The position numbers were made by a program, and so were the translations under genes. 64,000 bases of DNA from Diprion similis (Eukaryota > Arthropoda > Insecta > Hymenoptera > Diprionidae). Where the stretch lies: contig NC_060106.1 of the NCBI RefSeq assembly GCF_021155765.1, positions 11,539,501 through 11,603,500 of the forward strand, read 5' to 3'. The notes under the pieces were generated by a model, which was not told the DNA's origin, made no database searches, and saw nothing but the letters and a program-made list of their open reading frames with translations. Shown here piece after piece: positions 20,584 through 50,500 of the stretch. Each line of letters opens with the position of its first letter. Within the stretch, counting starts at the first letter, position 1.

Positions 20584-21670
20584 ATGAAGTGTTACTGCGT
20601 CATGGTTTTGGCTTGTATCGCCGCAGTGGCTGCAGCCGATGAATATTACAATGGGAAATGGAACAACTTGGACACGCACGCGATTGTTAATAACAATCGA
20701 CTCTTAAAGAAGTACGAGGAGTGCGTAGTGGAAGAGAAGGCAACCGGCTGCCCTCAGGACGCCTTGGAGCTAAAAAGTGAGTAACGATTCGCATGGGCAC
20801 AATTTTTCGAACTCTCTTCGTGGAGTTCTTCATGTAGACAAGCATTACCTTTGATCATAATCAGCTCAGTATTGCGTAGTTAAATCGATTTATTATATTC
20901 GCGATTTTACAAGTGTCGGCTGCAAAATGAAGGTAGACAGAAAGCGAATTGCTGAATTAAAATGTCAACACTCAGCTGGCTCAAGAGCTTAGGCAGTCGG
21001 TGTTATTAACGTACATCTGTACGCTTGTAAAACATTTTCCGAGGAGCCAGCGAAGACGTCGATAAGACGTATAAGGATAATTACATGTCCTGGAATATGT
21101 GAGAACCAGTCGAATCGCGCGAGTGTAGCATCGTCTAGTCGCCAGCTTTGAACAAACTCAAACTAAGCTTTAGCTCATTGTCAGTTACCACTCAAAGGCA
21201 AATAAGCTTGGCATGTTTTCCTATTACTTGAAGCGAAATTTTGAAGGAGACTTGGCCAAAAGGTGTCAGTTTAATTGGAAGTTAATTTCTGTGCGACAAT
21301 TCTTGTGCCATTTAGAAGGACGCTTTTGTCACAGTTTCGAATTATCGAAAGTGAGGAAAAAAAATAATCCTACAGCCATAAATCATTTGATGTAATTAAT
21401 ATACTGACAACGAATGACAGTCAATATTGACTCAAAGACGGAGATCTAACATTGTTATTTTATTCGTTTGCAGAGGTTCTTCCGGAGGCGCTGGAAACAT
21501 CATGTGCCAAGTGCTCGCCAGAACAGAAAGATAAAATCAAAGACACTCTCGGGTACTTATGCATGAAGCAGAGAGCGTCTTTCGACAGACTTCTCGCAAA
21601 GTTTGACCCGGACCAAAAATATCGCGCTGCGTTCGAAGAGAAATTTGGGAAGCTTGAGGGATGCACTTAA
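20584..21670 (+). CDS. Chemosensory protein CSP-A (OS-D family, CX8C variant)
   Basis: A secreted carrier of the insect chemosensory protein family, whose members are small helical proteins that bind hydrophobic ligands in lymph. Exon 1 is 20584-20776 and exon 2 is 21474-21670, with a phase-1 GT-AG intron at the family's conserved position, just before VLPEAL. The product is 129 residues. It has a signal peptide (MKCYCVMVLACIAAVAA), the DxY-type N-terminus, four cysteines and the KFDPDQKYRAAFEEKF C-terminal helix. The spacing is CX8C-X18-CX2C: the first pair encloses VVEEKATG where most CSPs have six residues. An AATAAA signal lies at 21807-21812. It is the first of five CSP genes in the window, next to the multicopper oxidase gene. 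Confidence 0.93.
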
Positions 21671-34900: not shown

Positions 34901-37550
34901 GCGTGTGCGTGTAATGACAAGGCCGGTCGTTGCTCGATTGTCGATAATTGATCTTTGCTTTTTAATTGCTACTATAATCACGCGTGCGGATAATGCAAAA
35001 CGGATGATGCGTGGCAAAAAGAGCAGGTATCATTCTATTGGCAGTGATGAAAAATACACTGTTTAGAGGCCTTAAAGATCAGGAAACAAACAAATGTTCG
35101 GAGTCAAATGTTCCGACCAGTTCGTCATGATCTTTTTTTTTTTATAAAAACGATGTAAACGCAAAAACCAGAAAAGTTTTACATGCGTTATAGAGTATAT
35201 TTTATACATCTAAGCTGGAGCGAAAGATTCGATCTAATAAAAAGCACGTTGTATGCGGTTCTCTCTTTCCTCCCGAAACGTTAAGCTGTTTCAGCATTCA
35301 ACTTAATCTCACTGTCAATTGTGCTTATTCGGACAATTTTTACACCAAATTAAACGAGAGGCTACAGGCATATCGTGTCGTCCGAATTTCGAACTGTCCG
35401 GCATTTTTCTGGAATACTCGTATATTCTGATCGATGGAAGTCCGACAAGTTGAACCGCTGATCGATCGACAGAAGTCTAGAAAGTACCGGCTAACGATCT
35501 TTGTATCGCGCTTTACTGTCAGACGGCAATGATACCTGCAGGTGATCGCGAGGTCTGCAGAAACCTTTTTACCACAGTCTTCATACCGCCAAGCCTTCTA
35601 CCTACGATCGACTAAATAGGAGCTGACTAGATCATTCCTGTTTTTCGTCGTGACACGGGTAATGCAGATTTCTAATCGCTGTACTGCGATTTATAGTCTA
35701 TAGCCGTATGTAGATTAGACAGATTAGGGAAGATTCAATCTTGGGATGTAAATTTTCTTACCCAAATGCATGTAGTGATAACATTTTTTCGTATTTCGCA
35801 TTGGATTTTGGTAAAAAAGCTCCGCCGATTAAAAACCATTATACAATTGTAATTTTCTAACCGGATTACACATGAAACCGTATACTGGTTTTATTTATTC
35901 AGCATTTGCAATTCTACAACTCGGCGGTGTGAGCACTGTTGAATTATTATTGTTCAATAAATGTAATTTTATTTTTTTTAACAGATTACCGAGTCGTCTA
36001 CCGTGTGGAAGAAAAAATGTTTTTATCGTCATGCAAATCGATTCGACGTCAGTGTATTTAGATAAGTGATTTTCATCACCCATAATGAGGATTTGATTTG
36101 TGAAAAAAAACAAAGTTTACACTGAATTAGGTGTGATATTCTAATGAATATATTGAGAAGCTTGAATCGAGTTATGCATTAACGGATGTTGCCTACCCAT
36201 TGGATTGTGTATAATGTCGTGACAGCATCTTATTGTAATTAGTTACATACGCTAAATCGGAGTTACGCAATTGTTGCATTTCTTGAACATTCAATACATT
36301 CACTAAACCCGGAAGCCTTAGCCGATAAAAAACACTCATAATCTAATCAATATATCTGCCAACTCAAAGATCGAGCAATTTTCGACGGCAAAACCGGTAA
36401 AAAATTGACGTTTGCAATTAGTCTTTAGAGTTCAATGCGGGAGAGTTGGAACGCGCTAAAGCCTGCCAATCGTTTAAATTGTATCAACAAAAAATTGCCG
36501 ATCACAAAAACAGTGGAGGTCAGAAATGCGATGGTAGAGTTGTAGGAAAGGATATATTTAACTATTTTCGTGATAAACCGCCGCATTATTTTAACCATTG
36601 TTCCGCATACAATATTAAAGTTTAGCACACAGTGAAAATAATCATCTTAACTATAAAATTCGGATGTCCTCACAGGAATCTGTATTCTTCACTGGATGTA
36701 GGATTGAAAAAATCGTTGCCGTTACTCTCAACGCTGTTTCGCGACTGAAAGTGCTGTGAAACGTCACTGTAGCAGAATAAAGCAACGAAAATTAATATGC
36801 AGAGAATTATTTGTTGGAATCAAAAAAATTCTACCTATCTCGCCATAATATTTGACCCTGGTAAAATTTGGTTGATTGCAGCGATTGCAGCGGTTTCTAT
36901 CTGTCATTTCAATCAATAAATCTTTTCTCTGTGACTTGCCAAATTTTAGCGATTCCACATGTCCTTCACCATATGTCGAAGATTTATTTTCATATTCAAA
37001 TAAATGTTTGTGCATTTGTGGATGGACATATCTAATCGTAAGCGGCAGAATTATTAAATGCTGTCCGCTTTACGCATTACGAAGCATCGTGCAAATGACG
37101 AGTCCTTTAAACATGCAATGTGCTTTGAAATAATTTCCCCGTGTAATTCACTGTGATCGGCAGTAATTGACAGTAGTCGGTGGCCATTTTCAAAGCTTGT
37201 CATTATCTGAAATCTCTGTAATGACTTGCGATATGATACAACAATTTCATGCAATTTTTTAGAATTGACGGTTTAGTCGTGTGCAAACATGAAATTTACA
37301 ATATCGGTGGTCAACTCCTCGCAACAGTTCCTGCGTTTCATCAGTCCACGGTATAAGGCGACATAAAGCCTTTTGCGAATGATAAAACGCGGCAAGCACC
37401 GCAGGAATGATCACAGCCCGAAGTGCACACCTGCGGTCATTACCGGGCTGTAAGTTATAATTCCATACCGTATCTCCCCTGGGTGACAAGGGTTGGCAAG
37501 GAGGTGGAGGTTGATTGCACGTCTATTAACTCAGCAAAGCACTTCCGCAC
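31919..37550. other. Large intergenic region without a gene
   Basis: About 5.6 kb, AT-rich. Short open frames occur on both strands, but none shows a signal peptide, conserved cysteines or the splice structure of the flanking families. A self-complementary TGTATACATGTATACA stretch lies near 34547-34562. I see nothing else to annotate. Confidence 0.5.
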
Positions 37551-37597
37551 GTTAAATAACCGTATAAATATTAGGGGTTATCGAGTCGTCGGAGTTA
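37551..37597 (+). promoter_or_regulatory. CSP-C core promoter, block shared with CSP-D
   Basis: TATAAATA at 37563-37570 with TTAGT (initiator-like) about 30 bp downstream. The surrounding block, gttaaataaccgtataaata, is identical to the one before CSP-D, so the tandem copies keep the same core promoter. Confidence 0.6.
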
Positions 37598-37636
37598 GTC
37601 TAACGTGAAACGTTATCTCGACATCTACTGTCAACG

Positions 37637-38442
37637 ATGTTTCGAATCACCCTTGTCGCCGGTTTCCTTATCGCCGCTCTGGCGATGGTTTCAGCCGAGG
37701 AACTCTACTCCGACATACACGACGACATTGACGTGATGGGAATTCTCGAAAACCCTGAGGTTCGCAGGAAATATTACGAGTGCTTCATGGATTTGGGACC
37801 ATGCCTTACCGAGGACGCGAAATTCTTCAAAGGAACGTATCTGTCCTTAACTTTAAATCGAGTTACCGAGAGGATTAAGTTCGTTTTAATAAATACGCGA
37901 AATTCTAATCAAAGTTGTACACCTCGAGTCGCTGCAAGTAAATTTTCAAATATAAATCTTACTCGAAGGATACATGTTGAGTTGTCCTTTCGAATACGCA
38001 ACAAAACTATCTTCAACCAATATTCACCTGATATTTTCAACCCTCATGGATAATAAATTATAACAGGTTTCGATGGTTATGAGTAAACAGTAGTGCGTAT
38101 GGTGAATATATTTTCTACCTGGATTATAAATCATCAAGACATTAGTTTGAAAAAAAGAATTATGCAATGTTTCTTACAAAAGCACATTTCCTCGTTATAA
38201 ATTTGACCGAAATTTTTCCCAAACGTCACTAATTTGCCGTACAGAGTTTCGCATCTAACCGCTAATTCACGTTTATCGAAACAGGACATTTTCCGGATGC
38301 AGTAGCCAGTCACTGCCGTAGATGCACGGATAAGCAGAGGGAGCATTTCGACACCGTGGCTGTATGGTACACCGAAAACGAACCGGAAGAGTGGAAATCT
38401 CTGATCGCTAAGGGCATCGCGGATGCCCACGCCGGGAAATAA
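37637..38442 (+). CDS. Chemosensory protein CSP-C (OS-D family), unusual splice
   Basis: A secreted CSP-family carrier. The first coding part is 37637 to about 37832: signal peptide MFRITLVAGFLIAALAMVSA, then YECFMDLGPC (CX6C). The second is 38285-38442: HFPDAVASHCRRC, then WYTENEPEEWKSL, ending AHAGK. Exon 2 needs a phase-1 partner. The only nearby GT in exon 1 (GGAAC|GTATCT) is phase 2 and would break the frame. Keeping frame at the family position implies that the exon ends after AAA-G with a GA dinucleotide at the donor, or that another donor is used, such as GCAA|GTAAAT near 37937, which adds about 36 residues. CSP-D has the same layout. With the GA donor the third spacing is X19 rather than X18, and the product is 117 residues. 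It is a tandem paralogue of CSP-D. AATAAA lies at 38683. Confidence 0.8.
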
Positions 38443-38682
38443 GGCAGAGGCTGAAGGAACATCGATCCTAGAATGCCGACCATTGAGTGAAAACTCCTGG
38501 ATACCCAATATTAATTACTACATCTTGGTATTTCAATTGTATATGCTTGTAATATCAAAATTCTGTATGCGTATTTCGTTATTGTTGTTGAAATTCTTGT
38601 GAAAGCACATTATTGTTCCGACGTACAATCATGGATGTTCAATGCAATATTTCTTGTTCAAAGCTTTGCTCAAAAGTATTTA

Positions 38683-38688
38683 AATAAA
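38683..38688 (+). terminator. Polyadenylation signal of CSP-C
   Basis: An AATAAA hexamer about 240 bp past the CSP-C stop. Confidence 0.4.
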
Positions 38689-39667
38689 AATTTTATCTGC
38701 ACGTCAGGCCAACATATCAAAATAAAGATACTTCGCGATACAGAAAAAGAAAAAAATATTCAACAACGAAAAAAAATTCAGTAGTGGTAATTCCGGAACT
38801 CGGGTATACCGAGAATTAAAAATTATCGAACAGGAATTTCAATTCCTTTTTTCATATATGTTGTTGACAGGCTGTATGTAAGTATAGCGAGTTTGATTTA
38901 ATTTAAAACTGACGTAGAATACGGTGAGAAACCAATAACAAAGATTTAATTGCGTTTAAGTCGTGCAGTTCTAACTGATATATTAATCACATAACAGATA
39001 ATTATTATGCTTTCGTAACAGCATCCAATTGAATTCCACAATAATATTGCAGGCGTCCAATTATTGCGTTATCCTTCGAACGACCGACCATTTAATACCT
39101 CTACGACACAGCAAACTTTTTCTATAGGAAGAGACTGATCATTACCCAGAATATTTTTTACTTGCCGAAAGGTCGATGAATTCACGTTCATGAGATCGGA
39201 AAAAAAGTTTCAACCACAAACGGTGTCAAGGTCTAGACATAGTATTCATTGCCAGAGCTTTCTAGAGCCTGCTAGGCAAATAAATTGTACGAGAAAGATA
39301 AAACCGTGGGAACAGGACTCCAAATGGTTAAAATAACGGGATCATCGTATTTTTATAGTGTCAGAAGACTGAAGAACGTCTTCAACATAGTAAGAAAAAG
39401 TTGCATATCCTTGTAATTATAGACAAAATTTTTTGCATTTTGTCATACCTACTTTTAACACATCAGCATCTCAGATTCAGACCACGGTTGTAACTCCTGG
39501 TGTACAGCGTTTGCGTTTTATTGGCACGGCGCGAAAAAAAATAATAAATAAAAAAGAAAAAAAAAACATATGCAAATCTTAAAAGTGAACAAGATACGCA
39601 GTACCAATCACAACCTTATCTGCACACTAGGAATTAGACATCACCTGACAGGAGTTTGTAATGGCAT
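38689..39667. other. Intergenic between CSP-C and CSP-D
   Basis: AT-rich spacer with A runs near 39533-39565. No gene is recognised. Confidence 0.55.
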
Positions 39668-39680
39668 GTTTATCCGCATT
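39668..39680 (+). promoter_or_regulatory. Upstream motif shared by CSP-D and CSP-E
   Basis: TTTATCCGCATT followed by a GTGGCA-like stretch lies about 95 bp before the CSP-D TATA box. The same string occurs on the minus strand upstream of CSP-E. It is a candidate regulatory element inferred only from this recurrence. Confidence 0.35.
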
Positions 39681-39751
39681 AAGTGGCATGACGGGCGAGG
39701 AGGGGATGGTGATTGCATAAGCATCAGCTCACCGAAGGATCTCCCTCGCGT

Positions 39752-39800
39752 GTTAAATAACCGTATAAATATCGGGGCTTAACCGGTAATCGGTGTCAGT
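39752..39800 (+). promoter_or_regulatory. CSP-D core promoter (TATA box and initiator)
   Basis: TATAAATA at 39764-39771 with TCAGT at 39796-39800, about 33 bp apart. The block around the TATA box matches CSP-C over 21 bases. Confidence 0.65.
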
Positions 39801-39833
39801 GTGATGTGAAAGATTATTTCGACACTATCAACA

Positions 39834-40653
39834 ATGCTCCGCTTCACGTTTGTTGTCGGCTTTGCTCTCGCCATTTTGGGGATCGTCGCAACCGAGGAAT
39901 TGTACCCCGACAAGTACGACGGGATTGACCCGTTAGGAATTGTTGAAAACGATCGCCTCCGTAAGCAGTACTACAAATGCTTCATGGACGCGGGACCTTG
40001 CGTTACCGCTGATGCGCAATTCTTCAAAGGAACGTATTTTTCTGAATTTAACTTACCTAATTTATTTCGTATTTTAATTGTGAGAGATAATATTCATACT
40101 ATATTTCACACCTCGAATCCATGCAAAATCTATAGAACGCAGATAATTTTGAAATCCCGAATCTGGCTCGGAAGTCTCATCGATATGTGTAAATCGCATG
40201 TAAAATCGTTATTTCAAGTTTAGAATCGATTTAATCCCAAAATTTTTCCACCGTTGCAACTATTGAATCATAACAGGTGTCGATCATCGTAAGTAAACAG
40301 TAGTGATCGTGGTAAATATATCATCAGTGGAACTTTTGGTGAAAAACACAATGTCGGGATTGTTACAATAATACGAGTTAAATATCCTGCAAAAGCACAT
40401 TTTATCAAAGAAAAGATTTCAAGTTTCACGCCAAACGCAATTTTTTCGTGTAGAGACTCCTACCTGACCCGTCGCTTTATTTATTAAAATAGGTTTCTTT
40501 CCGGAAGCAGTATTGACGAAGTGCCGTAAATGTACAGAAAAGCAAAAGGAGAGTTTGGATATTTTGGTGGCATGGTACGTCGAACATCAGCCGGATGACT
40601 GGAACACCCTGGTCAAGCATTTTCTTGAAAATGCCCAGAAGCAGAAACATTGA
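39834..40653 (+). CDS. Chemosensory protein CSP-D (OS-D family), unusual splice
   Basis: A secreted CSP-family carrier. The first coding part is 39834 to about 40029: signal peptide MLRFTFVVGFALAILGIVAT, then YKCFMDAGPC (CX6C). The second is 40493-40653: FFPEAVLTKCRKC, then WYVEHQPDDWNTL, ending NAQKQKH. As in CSP-C, exon 2 requires a phase-1 partner while the local GT (AAAGGAAC|GTATTT) is phase 2. Both genes share the string AAAGGAACGTAT there, and both first exons measure 196 nt to the inferred AAA-G end. The last base pair of the intron is AG (aaaatag). With that boundary the product is 118 residues. It is the closest paralogue of CSP-C by sequence, structure and promoter. AATAAA lies at 40851. 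Confidence 0.8.
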
Positions 40654-40850
40654 GAAAGCACATTTACTCAATGAGGGAAATGCACGCGAATGCTGAAGAA
40701 ACATCGATTCGCGATGGATGTTGACTAAGCGATAACGTGGCATTTCTGTCCCGAATCTCAGTCGTTTTTAGAACACACATGTACATTTTGTTATTACTGT
40801 TGAATTGTTTGTTATTATGATTTTATTAAAACGTACGATACTATAAATAT

Positions 40851-40856
40851 AATAAA
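40851..40856 (+). terminator. Polyadenylation signal of CSP-D
   Basis: An AATAAA hexamer about 200 bp past the CSP-D stop. Confidence 0.4.
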
Positions 40857-41630
40857 CAAAATACTTACCTACGGAAAGTTCTGGTGAAAAATAATCCAAC
40901 AGAAGTCTTATTGCGTCGGATAAATTTGAAAAAATAAGCATACAAAACCTAACAAAATACGTAACGGATCTGAGTCTAAAACTGCGATTGCACAGTGCTG
41001 ATTTGCCTGATAGCTGATTTCGAATATCTCGAAGAATGGCGGAGTTAGTAGCCGCTGTTTCGATACCGGAAATGTGGTGGGGCCCAAAATCTTATATCGG
41101 CAGTGCTTCTGGATAAGAACAGTAAATTTCATCCAAATCGGTTTAATGGTTCGACTGGAACTCTAACCGCAAGACATGTGTGCTCGCATAAATCAACTTT
41201 AGAAAATATCTGCCAAATCTTTTTTGGGTGAAAATCGTGTTTCCCTGGTAATTTTATGATTCGTCTCGATCCGACGTTTGTTCGCAATGACAAATATACG
41301 AGGCACGCCATTTTTATGCTAACGATCGTGCTAGAGTTATAACTTATTCAAAACGTTGTTTTTGTTGAGTGAAACTATGACGAAGGAAAGTTACGCAACG
41401 ATGAATATTAATGTTTTTGAATCATTCGAATGAAACGATGAGTTGTTATTTATTTATTCGAAAAAGTGAGTTTTTCTTATTTTACTCAACAATTCCTTAT
41501 GCCGCACAGTAATAAAAGTATAATATTCAATTATATAATTCTAGTAAAATAAACTTATCGACGAATAGCCTTAAGTGAAGATTTCGAGATTCAGATCGGA
41601 AATCGTGATACAGTTCATATCACATGTCGT
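40857..41630. other. Convergent intergenic region, possible repeat
   Basis: The stretch 40965-41320 is less AT-rich than its surroundings and reads like a dispersed repeat, but I cannot identify the element. The rest is AT-rich spacer between the convergent CSP-D and CSP-E genes. Confidence 0.35.
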
Positions 41631-47546: not shown

Positions 47547-50500
47547 CTAACATGTCACGAAAAAGTGCCGTTTCTTTTTTAAAGCGTTTTGGCGCTTGGC
47601 GTATTTCTCGACGTACACAAGAGCGCCAGCCAGCGTCATACCCATCGAGAGCAAAAATAAGGCTGGCGAAAATTCTTCAAGGGACACAGGGACCGGGATC
47701 GCACTGTGACTCTCTGGACAAATCGGCTTCCGGTAGTGCCAAACGTGCCGCAGACGTTCGGCCATCCCTCGTTCGATGATTTTCCGCATCCTGTGCAAGA
47801 AAAAAAAATAACTCTAAAGACTTTTGTGGTTTCGAGGTATTTCCACAAGCAAGAAGCCTCACTTACCCGTAAGTGACCATTTTTTTGAACGGCGAATGCT
47901 TACTCGTAACTGTAGCCGTATGTTTCGGAGGAAACAATTGGATTTCTACGAGATCGCATATTTCGTCCTCGGCAAAAGTGTCCTGAAAATTGGGAACGTG
48001 GTAAGTGAATTCCGGAAGTAGATCAGGCGACTATTGAAAGGTTACCGTGATTATCTTGTAGGCAGTGGCAACGTCGACGTGAAACGCAAACCCGCCCTTT
48101 TGCACGCGGCGAAGACCCTCGCGAGGGCTGTAATACGCTGGCTGTTTCCGGTTCCTGGCAGGTGCTACTTTTTTCTTGTAGAGCCGTAGCGCCACTGGAT
48201 CAGTGGTCGTCTGCCATCAGATCGAAAGTTTACGGATAAAAAGGCGAATACGAAATCAGAAGGATGAGGCAAGAGGCCAGCTTTACCGCAAAAAAATCGT
48301 AGTTGTAGGCGATATCCTCGATTCCTACTCGCAGATCACTATCCAGGAGGTCCTTCAGGGTGTTTATATACCTAGGGTGCTGAGCGAGTAAGGAACCCAC
48401 GATACTCGCTGAGTAAAACTGATACAGAAGCAGGCCCCAGATGAAGAGGAAGATGAAGACGACACGCCCGGAGATCAACTGCGGTCCATCCGTCAGACCT
48501 GGAAATTACGTACCTCTGATAGGTCATTCTTCAGTAAAATCAGTGAAAAGTGATATCCTGCTTCAACAGTGAGTTTCAAAAATCTGAAAAAGCTCTCTCA
48601 GTTTTCCTAACCAGAATTGATTGATCAAATATTGTAAAACATTGGCAAAGTTAAGGTAACATTCGCCCGGAACGACCTATTAGGGGTATATACACACCCA
48701 AGGTGAAGTAAACAATTCCGAATCAAAACAAAACAGTATTGAGCTCATTCGGCTCGCTTGACGACTCGCAGTCACGTCGCGTATCTCCGACGAGAAGGTG
48801 ACGCAGAAAAGTTTAGTGGCGTACAGATATTGGCATCTTTGTACAGTGAATAAAGTCTACGATCAAGTTTACATAAAGATGATTCCGGAGCAGGTGAAAA
48901 CCTTGGCAATTTACCTTGCTGGCACAAAGAAGCGGCAACGATCAGAGCAGTCTCCGAAGCAGCGTGAATGTCGAGGGTAGTTTTGGCAGCACGGTGAGTC
49001 AAACGAGGTTCTACCTTGACTATAATGTACAATAGAAACCAGCACACTAAGGCCGTCAACATCGTGAGCATCCAAACGTCGGGGGCGAAGGGCCGAAGAA
49101 AACCGTTGCGAACTGTGCTTTTCTTTGGGTGGCGAAATATGAAGCAGGGTCTGTTCGTAAGCAAAGAACCGAATTAATCAATGTTACGTATATTTGCCTA
49201 GATTTTCAAGGTTCCATTACGCTACGTATTTGCTTATTTTGCAATAGAGTTGGAAATTAACTTCTTTGTCAAGCGATTATCTGGGTTCTTTATTCCTGAG
49301 TATATTGGACACGGATTCCGCTTCTGGAGAAACCCAAATTCCGTGATTTGAATGTTGTTTTCATAATATAACAATAATAATTTCAACCTCGCCAGCCAAG
49401 TTTGAACAGTGAATTCGGCGACGTCGATTCGTTCTTCCTTGAACTGCAGAGGCGTTGCGCCGATATCAACTCTGCCGGCAATCATGTCACCAAGCATTCC
49501 ATTAAACGAACCGTTATCCAACAGATATCCCCACGAAGTGGCTCTCATTAAATTCATCCTAAAGAAGCACACGTTAATCGCGACATAAGTCTGGCAGTAA
49601 ATTAGCGGGGCGTGCTTTGGACCATTAAAGGGGGGGATTTACTTTTTTTCATTGCTCATCATTTCAATCATTTTCAATTTTTTTGTGAACAGAGATAAAT
49701 AAATCCACATGCCGAATTTCGCCTTGATCCGTTGCATAATTTCTTCACCAGAAAATTAGAAAAAGGAGATAAATTTACCGATAAAAAGTGAAATCCCTTT
49801 TAATAAAGTCCGTTGAACGTTGAGCGTGTTATGTCCCACAACTAGTTGCACCGTGACTTGACAAGTGCATGTTTTTTTTTCTCTGAATCAGTGCGAAATA
49901 TTCTGGAATAAAATTGGAATAAATATGTGTAAGAGTTACTTGAAATTGTAAGAGTCACGTAGCTGACAAACCAGGGCGTAATTGAAACGGTGCATCGTAT
50001 CCAGGTGCCGGTTAATGGGATACGAGATGTATGTCATGAAGTCTGGAGCAGGAGTATGAGTTATCTAAAAACAAAATCGAATTGTTACTGAAATTATTGA
50101 GGCTGGTGAGTTGGATTTGAAAAAAAAATAACGATCAACAAATCAGTGCATTTGCAGCGTACAGCGATCGAGACGTTGAGGGAAAGTCCGCGAAGATCGC
50201 CACGTCTTTGGTACTTGTACTGAGTCAAATTGACGGTCAGACCTTGTTGAATATTCCATTTCCCCATGTAAGTCACGTTTAGATCACCCCCGTGTCGATA
50301 ACTCGGGTTGTAAACATCGTAGAGTTCGAAAGTGTCGTCGGCTACGAGAAGAGCAACGACTAACTCGGTTTCGATGGTAAGAGGCAACGTGCTCAGTAAA
50401 GTCCTCGGCATCGTCTCGTTGGTGACGAGTAACCAAGAGTAGGACTCGTTGAAGGGGATATTTTGTTCTGTAAACTATAGAAATATTTCGTTCGCGTTAT

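Follow-up and report, generated by a model that had tools for sequence, protein, structure and literature searches.

CSP-C and CSP-D, two tandem insect chemosensory-protein (CSP, OS-D) genes of Diprion similis, carry GA at the point where the conserved K45 intron of related genes begins with GT. Reading from the sequence, we favour, with moderate confidence, an inherited and functional GA-AG intron at this position in both genes. Of the frame-keeping joins GA-AG is the simplest; it yields a CSP of normal length, and its splicing would most likely be carried out by the ordinary U2-type spliceosome. Confidence is held at this level despite the good site because the prior for a GA-AG intron in any one gene is low. 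The preliminary description had left several explanations side by side (GA-AG, GT-GG, an unusual downstream donor and paired loss of function); of these, GA-AG has the best support, short of proof.

The CSP cluster and the K45 junction

A tblastn search of the window, the whole 64,000-nt stretch of DNA analysed here, revealed five CSP genes, A to E (Table 1). The K45 introns of CSP-A (AAA/GTGAGT, the slash marking the cut), CSP-B (AGA/GTGAGT) and CSP-E (GAA/GTGAGT) have ordinary phase-1 donors. CSP-C and CSP-D both read AAA-G/GAACGTAT at their phase-1 intron, with GA at the exact place of the GT in A, B and E, and the assembly sequence at the site, AAAGGAACGTAT, is the same in the two genes. 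The split codon needs two bases from exon 2, whose acceptors are AG/GA CAT TTT CCG in CSP-C (AG at 38283-38284) and AG/GT TTC TTT CCG in CSP-D (AG at 40491-40492). The GA-AG junction is predicted as AAAG-GACATTTTCC in CSP-C and AAAG-GTTTCTTTCC in CSP-D. The intron so delimited has a GA 5' end and an AG 3' end, with the junction set by frame and family, and in both genes AG precedes the GA and A follows it.

The nearest GT lies four bases downstream (AAC/GT at 37837 in CSP-C and 40034 in CSP-D). Joining the exons directly at this GT shifts the frame and brings a stop in exon 2 about 12 residues on, in both genes. The preliminary description had claimed both a phase-1 K45 intron lacking an in-phase GT and a nearby GT that would put exon 2 out of frame; the coordinates and sequence of the former are borne out, and so is the frameshift.

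Table 1. Positions of the CSP genes, their K45 introns and the intronic features within the window
Feature	Position	Strand	Remarks
CSP-A	20584-21670	+	CSP gene
CSP-B	31872-27715	-	CSP gene with second intron
CSP-C	37637-38442	+	CSP gene with GA in place of the K45 GT
CSP-D	39834-40653	+	CSP gene with GA in place of the K45 GT
CSP-E	42441-41631	-	CSP gene
CSP-C exon 1 (GA-AG model)	37637..37832	+	Ends AAA-G, phase 1; spliced protein matches Pfam OS-D
CSP-C intron, GA...AG in favoured model	37833..38284	+	From sequence, frame and site scores
CSP-C exon 2	38285..38442	+	Stop TAA
CSP-D exon 1 (GA-AG model)	39834..40029	+	Ends AAA-G, phase 1; spliced protein matches Pfam OS-D
CSP-D intron, GA...AG in favoured model	40030..40492	+	From sequence, frame and site scores
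CSP-D exon 2	40493..40653	+	Stop TGA
Best-conserved intronic block, CSP-C	38034..38111	+	Pairs with 40244-40321; ungapped score 34
Best-conserved intronic block, CSP-D	40244..40321	+	Pairs with CSP-C block 38034-38111
Candidate 11-nt microexon, CSP-C, TAGTGCGTATG	38091..38101	+	Frame restored, weak acceptor
Candidate 11-nt microexon, CSP-D, TAGTGATCGTG	40301..40311	+	Frame restored, weak acceptor

The predicted GA-AG products are complete CSPs of 117 (C) and 118 (D) residues, matching Pfam OS-D (PF03392) at 90.1 and 98.3 bits, respectively, against a curated cut-off of 25 bits. Their cysteines align with those of CSP-A, -B and -E. Comparison of CSP-D with the PDB matched CSP chains, comprising seven distinct sequences, with Chemosensory protein 3 as the best match (9iw4, E 2.1e-18). 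Upstream, CGTATAAATAT is present at both CSP-C and CSP-D, and an initiator-like TCAGT is clear in CSP-D and less clear in CSP-C; the promoter and initiator labels are our own, and the core promoters earlier described as intact are only loosely supported. Intron number differs within the cluster, with CSP-B possessing a second intron at 29463-27821 (-) in its C-terminal half.

Strength of the GA site and the neighbouring donors

Splice sites were scored against 27 GT donors and 29 AG acceptors delimited by eye within the window. The introns come from CSP-A, -B and -E, a laccase, an aldehyde dehydrogenase and two ionotropic receptor genes, the non-CSP names being read off translations rather than taken from a search. 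All of these sites are canonical by construction because they were chosen as frame-keeping GT-AG sites. The set omits introns without clear limits, several of them in the second receptor gene, as well as a presumptive GC donor of the first receptor gene, and it includes one uncertain laccase donor (CAG/GTCAGC).

With the +1/+2 columns omitted, the GA site reaches a context score of 4.81 in both genes, beating 22 of the 27 donors; only 0.6% of the 4190 GA dinucleotides on the + strand of the window score as well. The nearby GT scores -0.39 in CSP-C and -3.85 in CSP-D, below 24 and 26 of the 27 donors, respectively, and lacks both the G at -1 and the G at +5, a double lack seen in none of the reference donors. 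The GA site, AAGGAACGTAT, matches the U1 complement (CAGGTAAGTAT) at 8 of 11 positions and the nearby GT site at 6 of 11; at least eight matches are found in six of the 27 donors and in 0.16% of + strand 11-mers in the window. By context and U1 matches, the GA site is a good donor in all but its second base. The calculated U1 duplex counts against it: at -3.0 kcal/mol it is weaker than the duplex of any of the 27 donors (weakest -3.2 kcal/mol), though stronger than that of the nearby GT (-1.5 kcal/mol). The exon-2 acceptors also speak against the GA-AG reading, scoring low, below 25 (C) and 26 (D) of the 29. No other GA donor is known in the window, whose other introns were delimited by GT-AG sites only.

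In the proposed history, position +2 of the K45 donor would have turned to A in the common ancestor of CSP-C and CSP-D. The remaining donor bases, namely AAG before the cut and A at +3, G at +5, T at +6 and AT at +7/+8, would have stayed similar enough to the U1 complement for the site to be recognised. Cutting at AAAG/GAAC and joining to the exon-2 AG would give a phase-1 codon (Gly) and a CSP of normal length.

The neighbouring GT could be used without a frameshift in a GT-GG intron, in which AAC/GT is paired with an acceptor one base beyond the AG of exon 2 (CAGG/A in CSP-C, TAGG/T in CSP-D), linking AAAGGAAC to ACATTT (C) or TTTCTT (D) and adding one residue. By reading, this join keeps the frame in both genes, as the preliminary description had supposed, and six GT-GG introns are annotated in flies, five of them reported with a similar alternative splice (PMC4528330). 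It requires the weak GT donor and a non-AG acceptor, skipping a proper AG one base away, and we regard it as highly improbable. A U12-type reading of GTATCT was dropped by reasoning alone because the frame problem would remain.

Donors further downstream fare no better. Scanned to the first in-frame stop, CSP-C has in-phase GT sites at 37914, 37917 and 37938 and CSP-D at 40069, 40174 and 40189. No offset is common to the two genes, and all six were rejected on this ground, leaving the unusual downstream donor proposed earlier without a shared candidate. One of them, CAA/GTAAAT at 37938 in CSP-C, is good-looking, with the frame open that far; it has no counterpart at the matching place in CSP-D and would insert 35 residues. 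An assembly or sequencing error would need identical hits at two diverged loci, 2.2 kb apart and different at half of their synonymous sites, in keeping with the earlier judgement that such an error is unlikely. Taken together, error and other exon structures (a downstream donor or an alternative first exon) make up a quite unlikely explanation.

Selection on the gene pair and a conserved intronic block

Comparison of CSP-C with CSP-D over both exons gives dS 0.82, dN 0.37 and dN/dS 0.45, with a Fisher test on rounded substitution counts yielding p 0.0007. By exon, dN/dS is 0.37 in exon 1 and 0.54 in exon 2; the test covers the two exons together. The coding exons are otherwise intact, as first described, with no internal stop in either gene; a neutral copy is expected to gather about 3.5 stops, and the probability of none is 0.025 per copy (simulated from the CSP-C sequence). 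Protein alignments of exon 1 and exon 2 show no internal gap, whereas the intron alignment, with 377 aligned bases, is broken by 39 gap runs, and 32 of these runs have a length not divisible by 3; the intron identity of 0.777 of aligned columns is inflated by this gap-rich alignment. The last ~40 bases of exon 2 are too diverged for certainty on this point, and a base-level alignment sets several small gaps there.

Because the two genes have diverged and yet are free of internal stops, the shared GA is probably old and CSP-C and CSP-D are probably not dead genes, in which case some in-frame splice very probably works in both. Since the GA is present in both copies, it is most simply older than the duplication, gene conversion being the alternative. 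Paired loss of function, raised in the preliminary description, would have the mutated donor leave both genes with frameshifted, truncated proteins. The frameshift that follows from joining at the existing GT and the weaker constraint in exon 2 alone would agree with such a loss. The dN/dS over both exons, the missing stops, the gapless exon proteins beside a gap-ridden intron and a GA older than the duplication, unless spread by gene conversion, all speak against it and make it improbable.

The best-conserved intronic block of the pair (Table 1) scores 34 without gaps, whereas 100 shuffles reach at most 16. It contains ATAACAGGT and AGTAAACAGTAGTG and is far better kept than the rest of the intron. 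The GA-AG model gives the block no role, and a microexon candidate in the correct frame lies within it, which counts against that model; the block's conservation is explained only if it is a microexon or a splicing element. A splicing enhancer supporting the GA donor is possible. A non-coding RNA was rejected as the cause, with no Rfam hit within the introns (37500-40900 searched, E up to 1). The single hit in that range, CrcZ at 40771-40824 (21.3 bits against a gathering threshold of 95, E 0.0066), lies outside the introns and is taken as chance. A two-sequence fold of the block gives four pairs at -2.3 kcal/mol. A second conserved intronic stretch, CAAAAGCACATTT, is located at 38172-38189 in CSP-C and 40385-40402 in CSP-D, and AAAGCACATT is seen again by eye 3' of the stop codon in both genes, near 38602 and 40655.

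The microexon, absent from the preliminary description and found in the follow-up analysis, is the serious alternative to GA-AG. Here the AAC/GT donor would be followed by an 11-nt exon and then exon 2, with every junction GT-AG (AAAGGAAC-TAGTGCGTATG-GACATT in CSP-C, AAAGGAAC-TAGTGATCGTG-GTTTCT in CSP-D) and the small exon flanked by CAG upstream and by GTGAAT (C) or GTAAAT (D) downstream. With the 4 + 11 nt included, the protein would gain five residues after K45, and both genes would be back in frame without an internal stop. Besides an 8-nt version starting from the next AG of CAGTAG, no other candidate exon of 3-40 nt occupies corresponding positions in the two genes, and the 11-nt one lies inside the best-conserved block. 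The donor that follows it is of fair quality, ranking below 12 (C) and 8 (D) of the 27, with 7/11 and 8/11 U1 matches, respectively. In 3000 column-Markov simulations, an in-frame candidate common to the two genes, with YAG and GTRA in each, appears in 0.6%, but the YAG/GTRA criterion was set post hoc, and any shared candidate arises in 19.5% of the 3000. A 35-nt exon from the block's upstream AG has the right length; by eye, a stop interrupts its frame in CSP-C and CSP-D alike, and the stop-filtered candidate lists do not include it.

Against the microexon stand its first donor, the same weak GT, and its acceptor, which falls below 26 (C) and 28 (D) of the 29 and resembles a random AG, with 61% (C) and 77% (D) of 3373 + strand AG sites scoring at least as high. 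Only five pyrimidines occupy positions -15 to -3, fewer than in any of the 29 acceptors. The 8-nt version does no better, below 26 of 29 in both genes with four pyrimidines. The acceptor score alone does not decide against the microexon because the exon-2 acceptors of CSP-C and CSP-D are weak too. The microexon also stretches C2-C3 from 19 to 24 residues (hand count) and costs ~9 Pfam bits, its products scoring 80.6 (C) and 89.6 (D) bits. On balance we consider it unlikely. Use of both sites in a splice switch, with the GA donor giving the standard CSP and the GT plus microexon an isoform with five more residues beside K45, is very unlikely; if true, both paralogues would have kept a two-state switch made up of a tandem GA/GT donor and a microexon of matching length.

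Relation to known GA-AG introns

Annotation 6.04 of Drosophila melanogaster includes 12 GA-AG introns, with 60,223 introns counted in release 6.03 (PMC4528330). All 12 are reported with RNA-seq support and eight lie in coding sequence; five are recorded with a similar alternative splice and seven without (PMC4528330). This very low frequency, about 0.02% of introns, counts against a GA-AG reading. The CSP-C and CSP-D introns share the GA donor and AG acceptor of the fly set and differ from it in being deduced from sequence alone, in belonging to CSP genes and in being common to two tandem paralogues.

The copepod Eurytemora affinis and the tunicate Oikopleura dioica are reported to have GA-AG introns in the thousands, the GA being preceded by a conserved AG and followed by A; in that survey, read support extends to only 19-23% of the GA-AG introns annotated (PMC7072748). 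CSP-C and CSP-D resemble them in the AG before and the A after the GA. This abundance may be due to a U1 variant, proposed for Eurytemora, with A/GATAAGT as its expected binding site (PMC7072748), a motif absent from the CSP-C and CSP-D sites, where this variant gives -0.7 kcal/mol in the duplex model, worse than the -3.0 kcal/mol of ordinary U1. Efficient GA-AG splicing has also been reported for a GA 5' splice site of human FGFR (cited in PMC7072748). Its use reportedly requires a canonical site located six nt upstream; the nearest GT in CSP-C and CSP-D is four nt downstream.

According to reviews, the single CSP intron is always at the K45 position (PMC7230875, PMC12940638). CSP-C and CSP-D are like insect CSP/OS-D genes in this position, in phase 1 and in their four cysteines, and unlike them in the donor dinucleotide. 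Compared with CSP-A, -B and -E, both have an additional residue in the C2-K45 interval and a shorter C-terminus, in which the KYR-type tail of the other three is absent. Among the literature matches listed, covering titles and abstract openings, none describes a CSP gene with a GA-AG intron or with a microexon, and FFKG-type peptide strings matched only work on Chlamydia or PX domains. Pattern searches with CSP-D gave five matches in viral contigs, and those with the CSP-C/CSP-D alignment gave 91 in genome contigs; neither set included a relative.

The pair is most likely an addition, at an unusual place, to a rare but already known intron class. If the GA-AG reading is true, the donor change survived duplication to considerable divergence in two functional paralogues. 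Gene finders mostly assume GT-AG, and standard annotation would then probably cut such genes short or overlook them. The pair also offers a clean test of GA-AG splicing versus a microexon.

Elsewhere in the window, a receptor-like gene at 45008-44939 (-) reads AAT/GCTTTC (W-R-A-M/T-G-F) at its paralogue's intron place, with no in-phase GT seen by eye at this site. It has either a GC-AG intron in very poor context (score -12.4) or is a damaged gene. The paralogue reads GAG/GTTGAA near 49390 (W-L-A-R/P-C-F).
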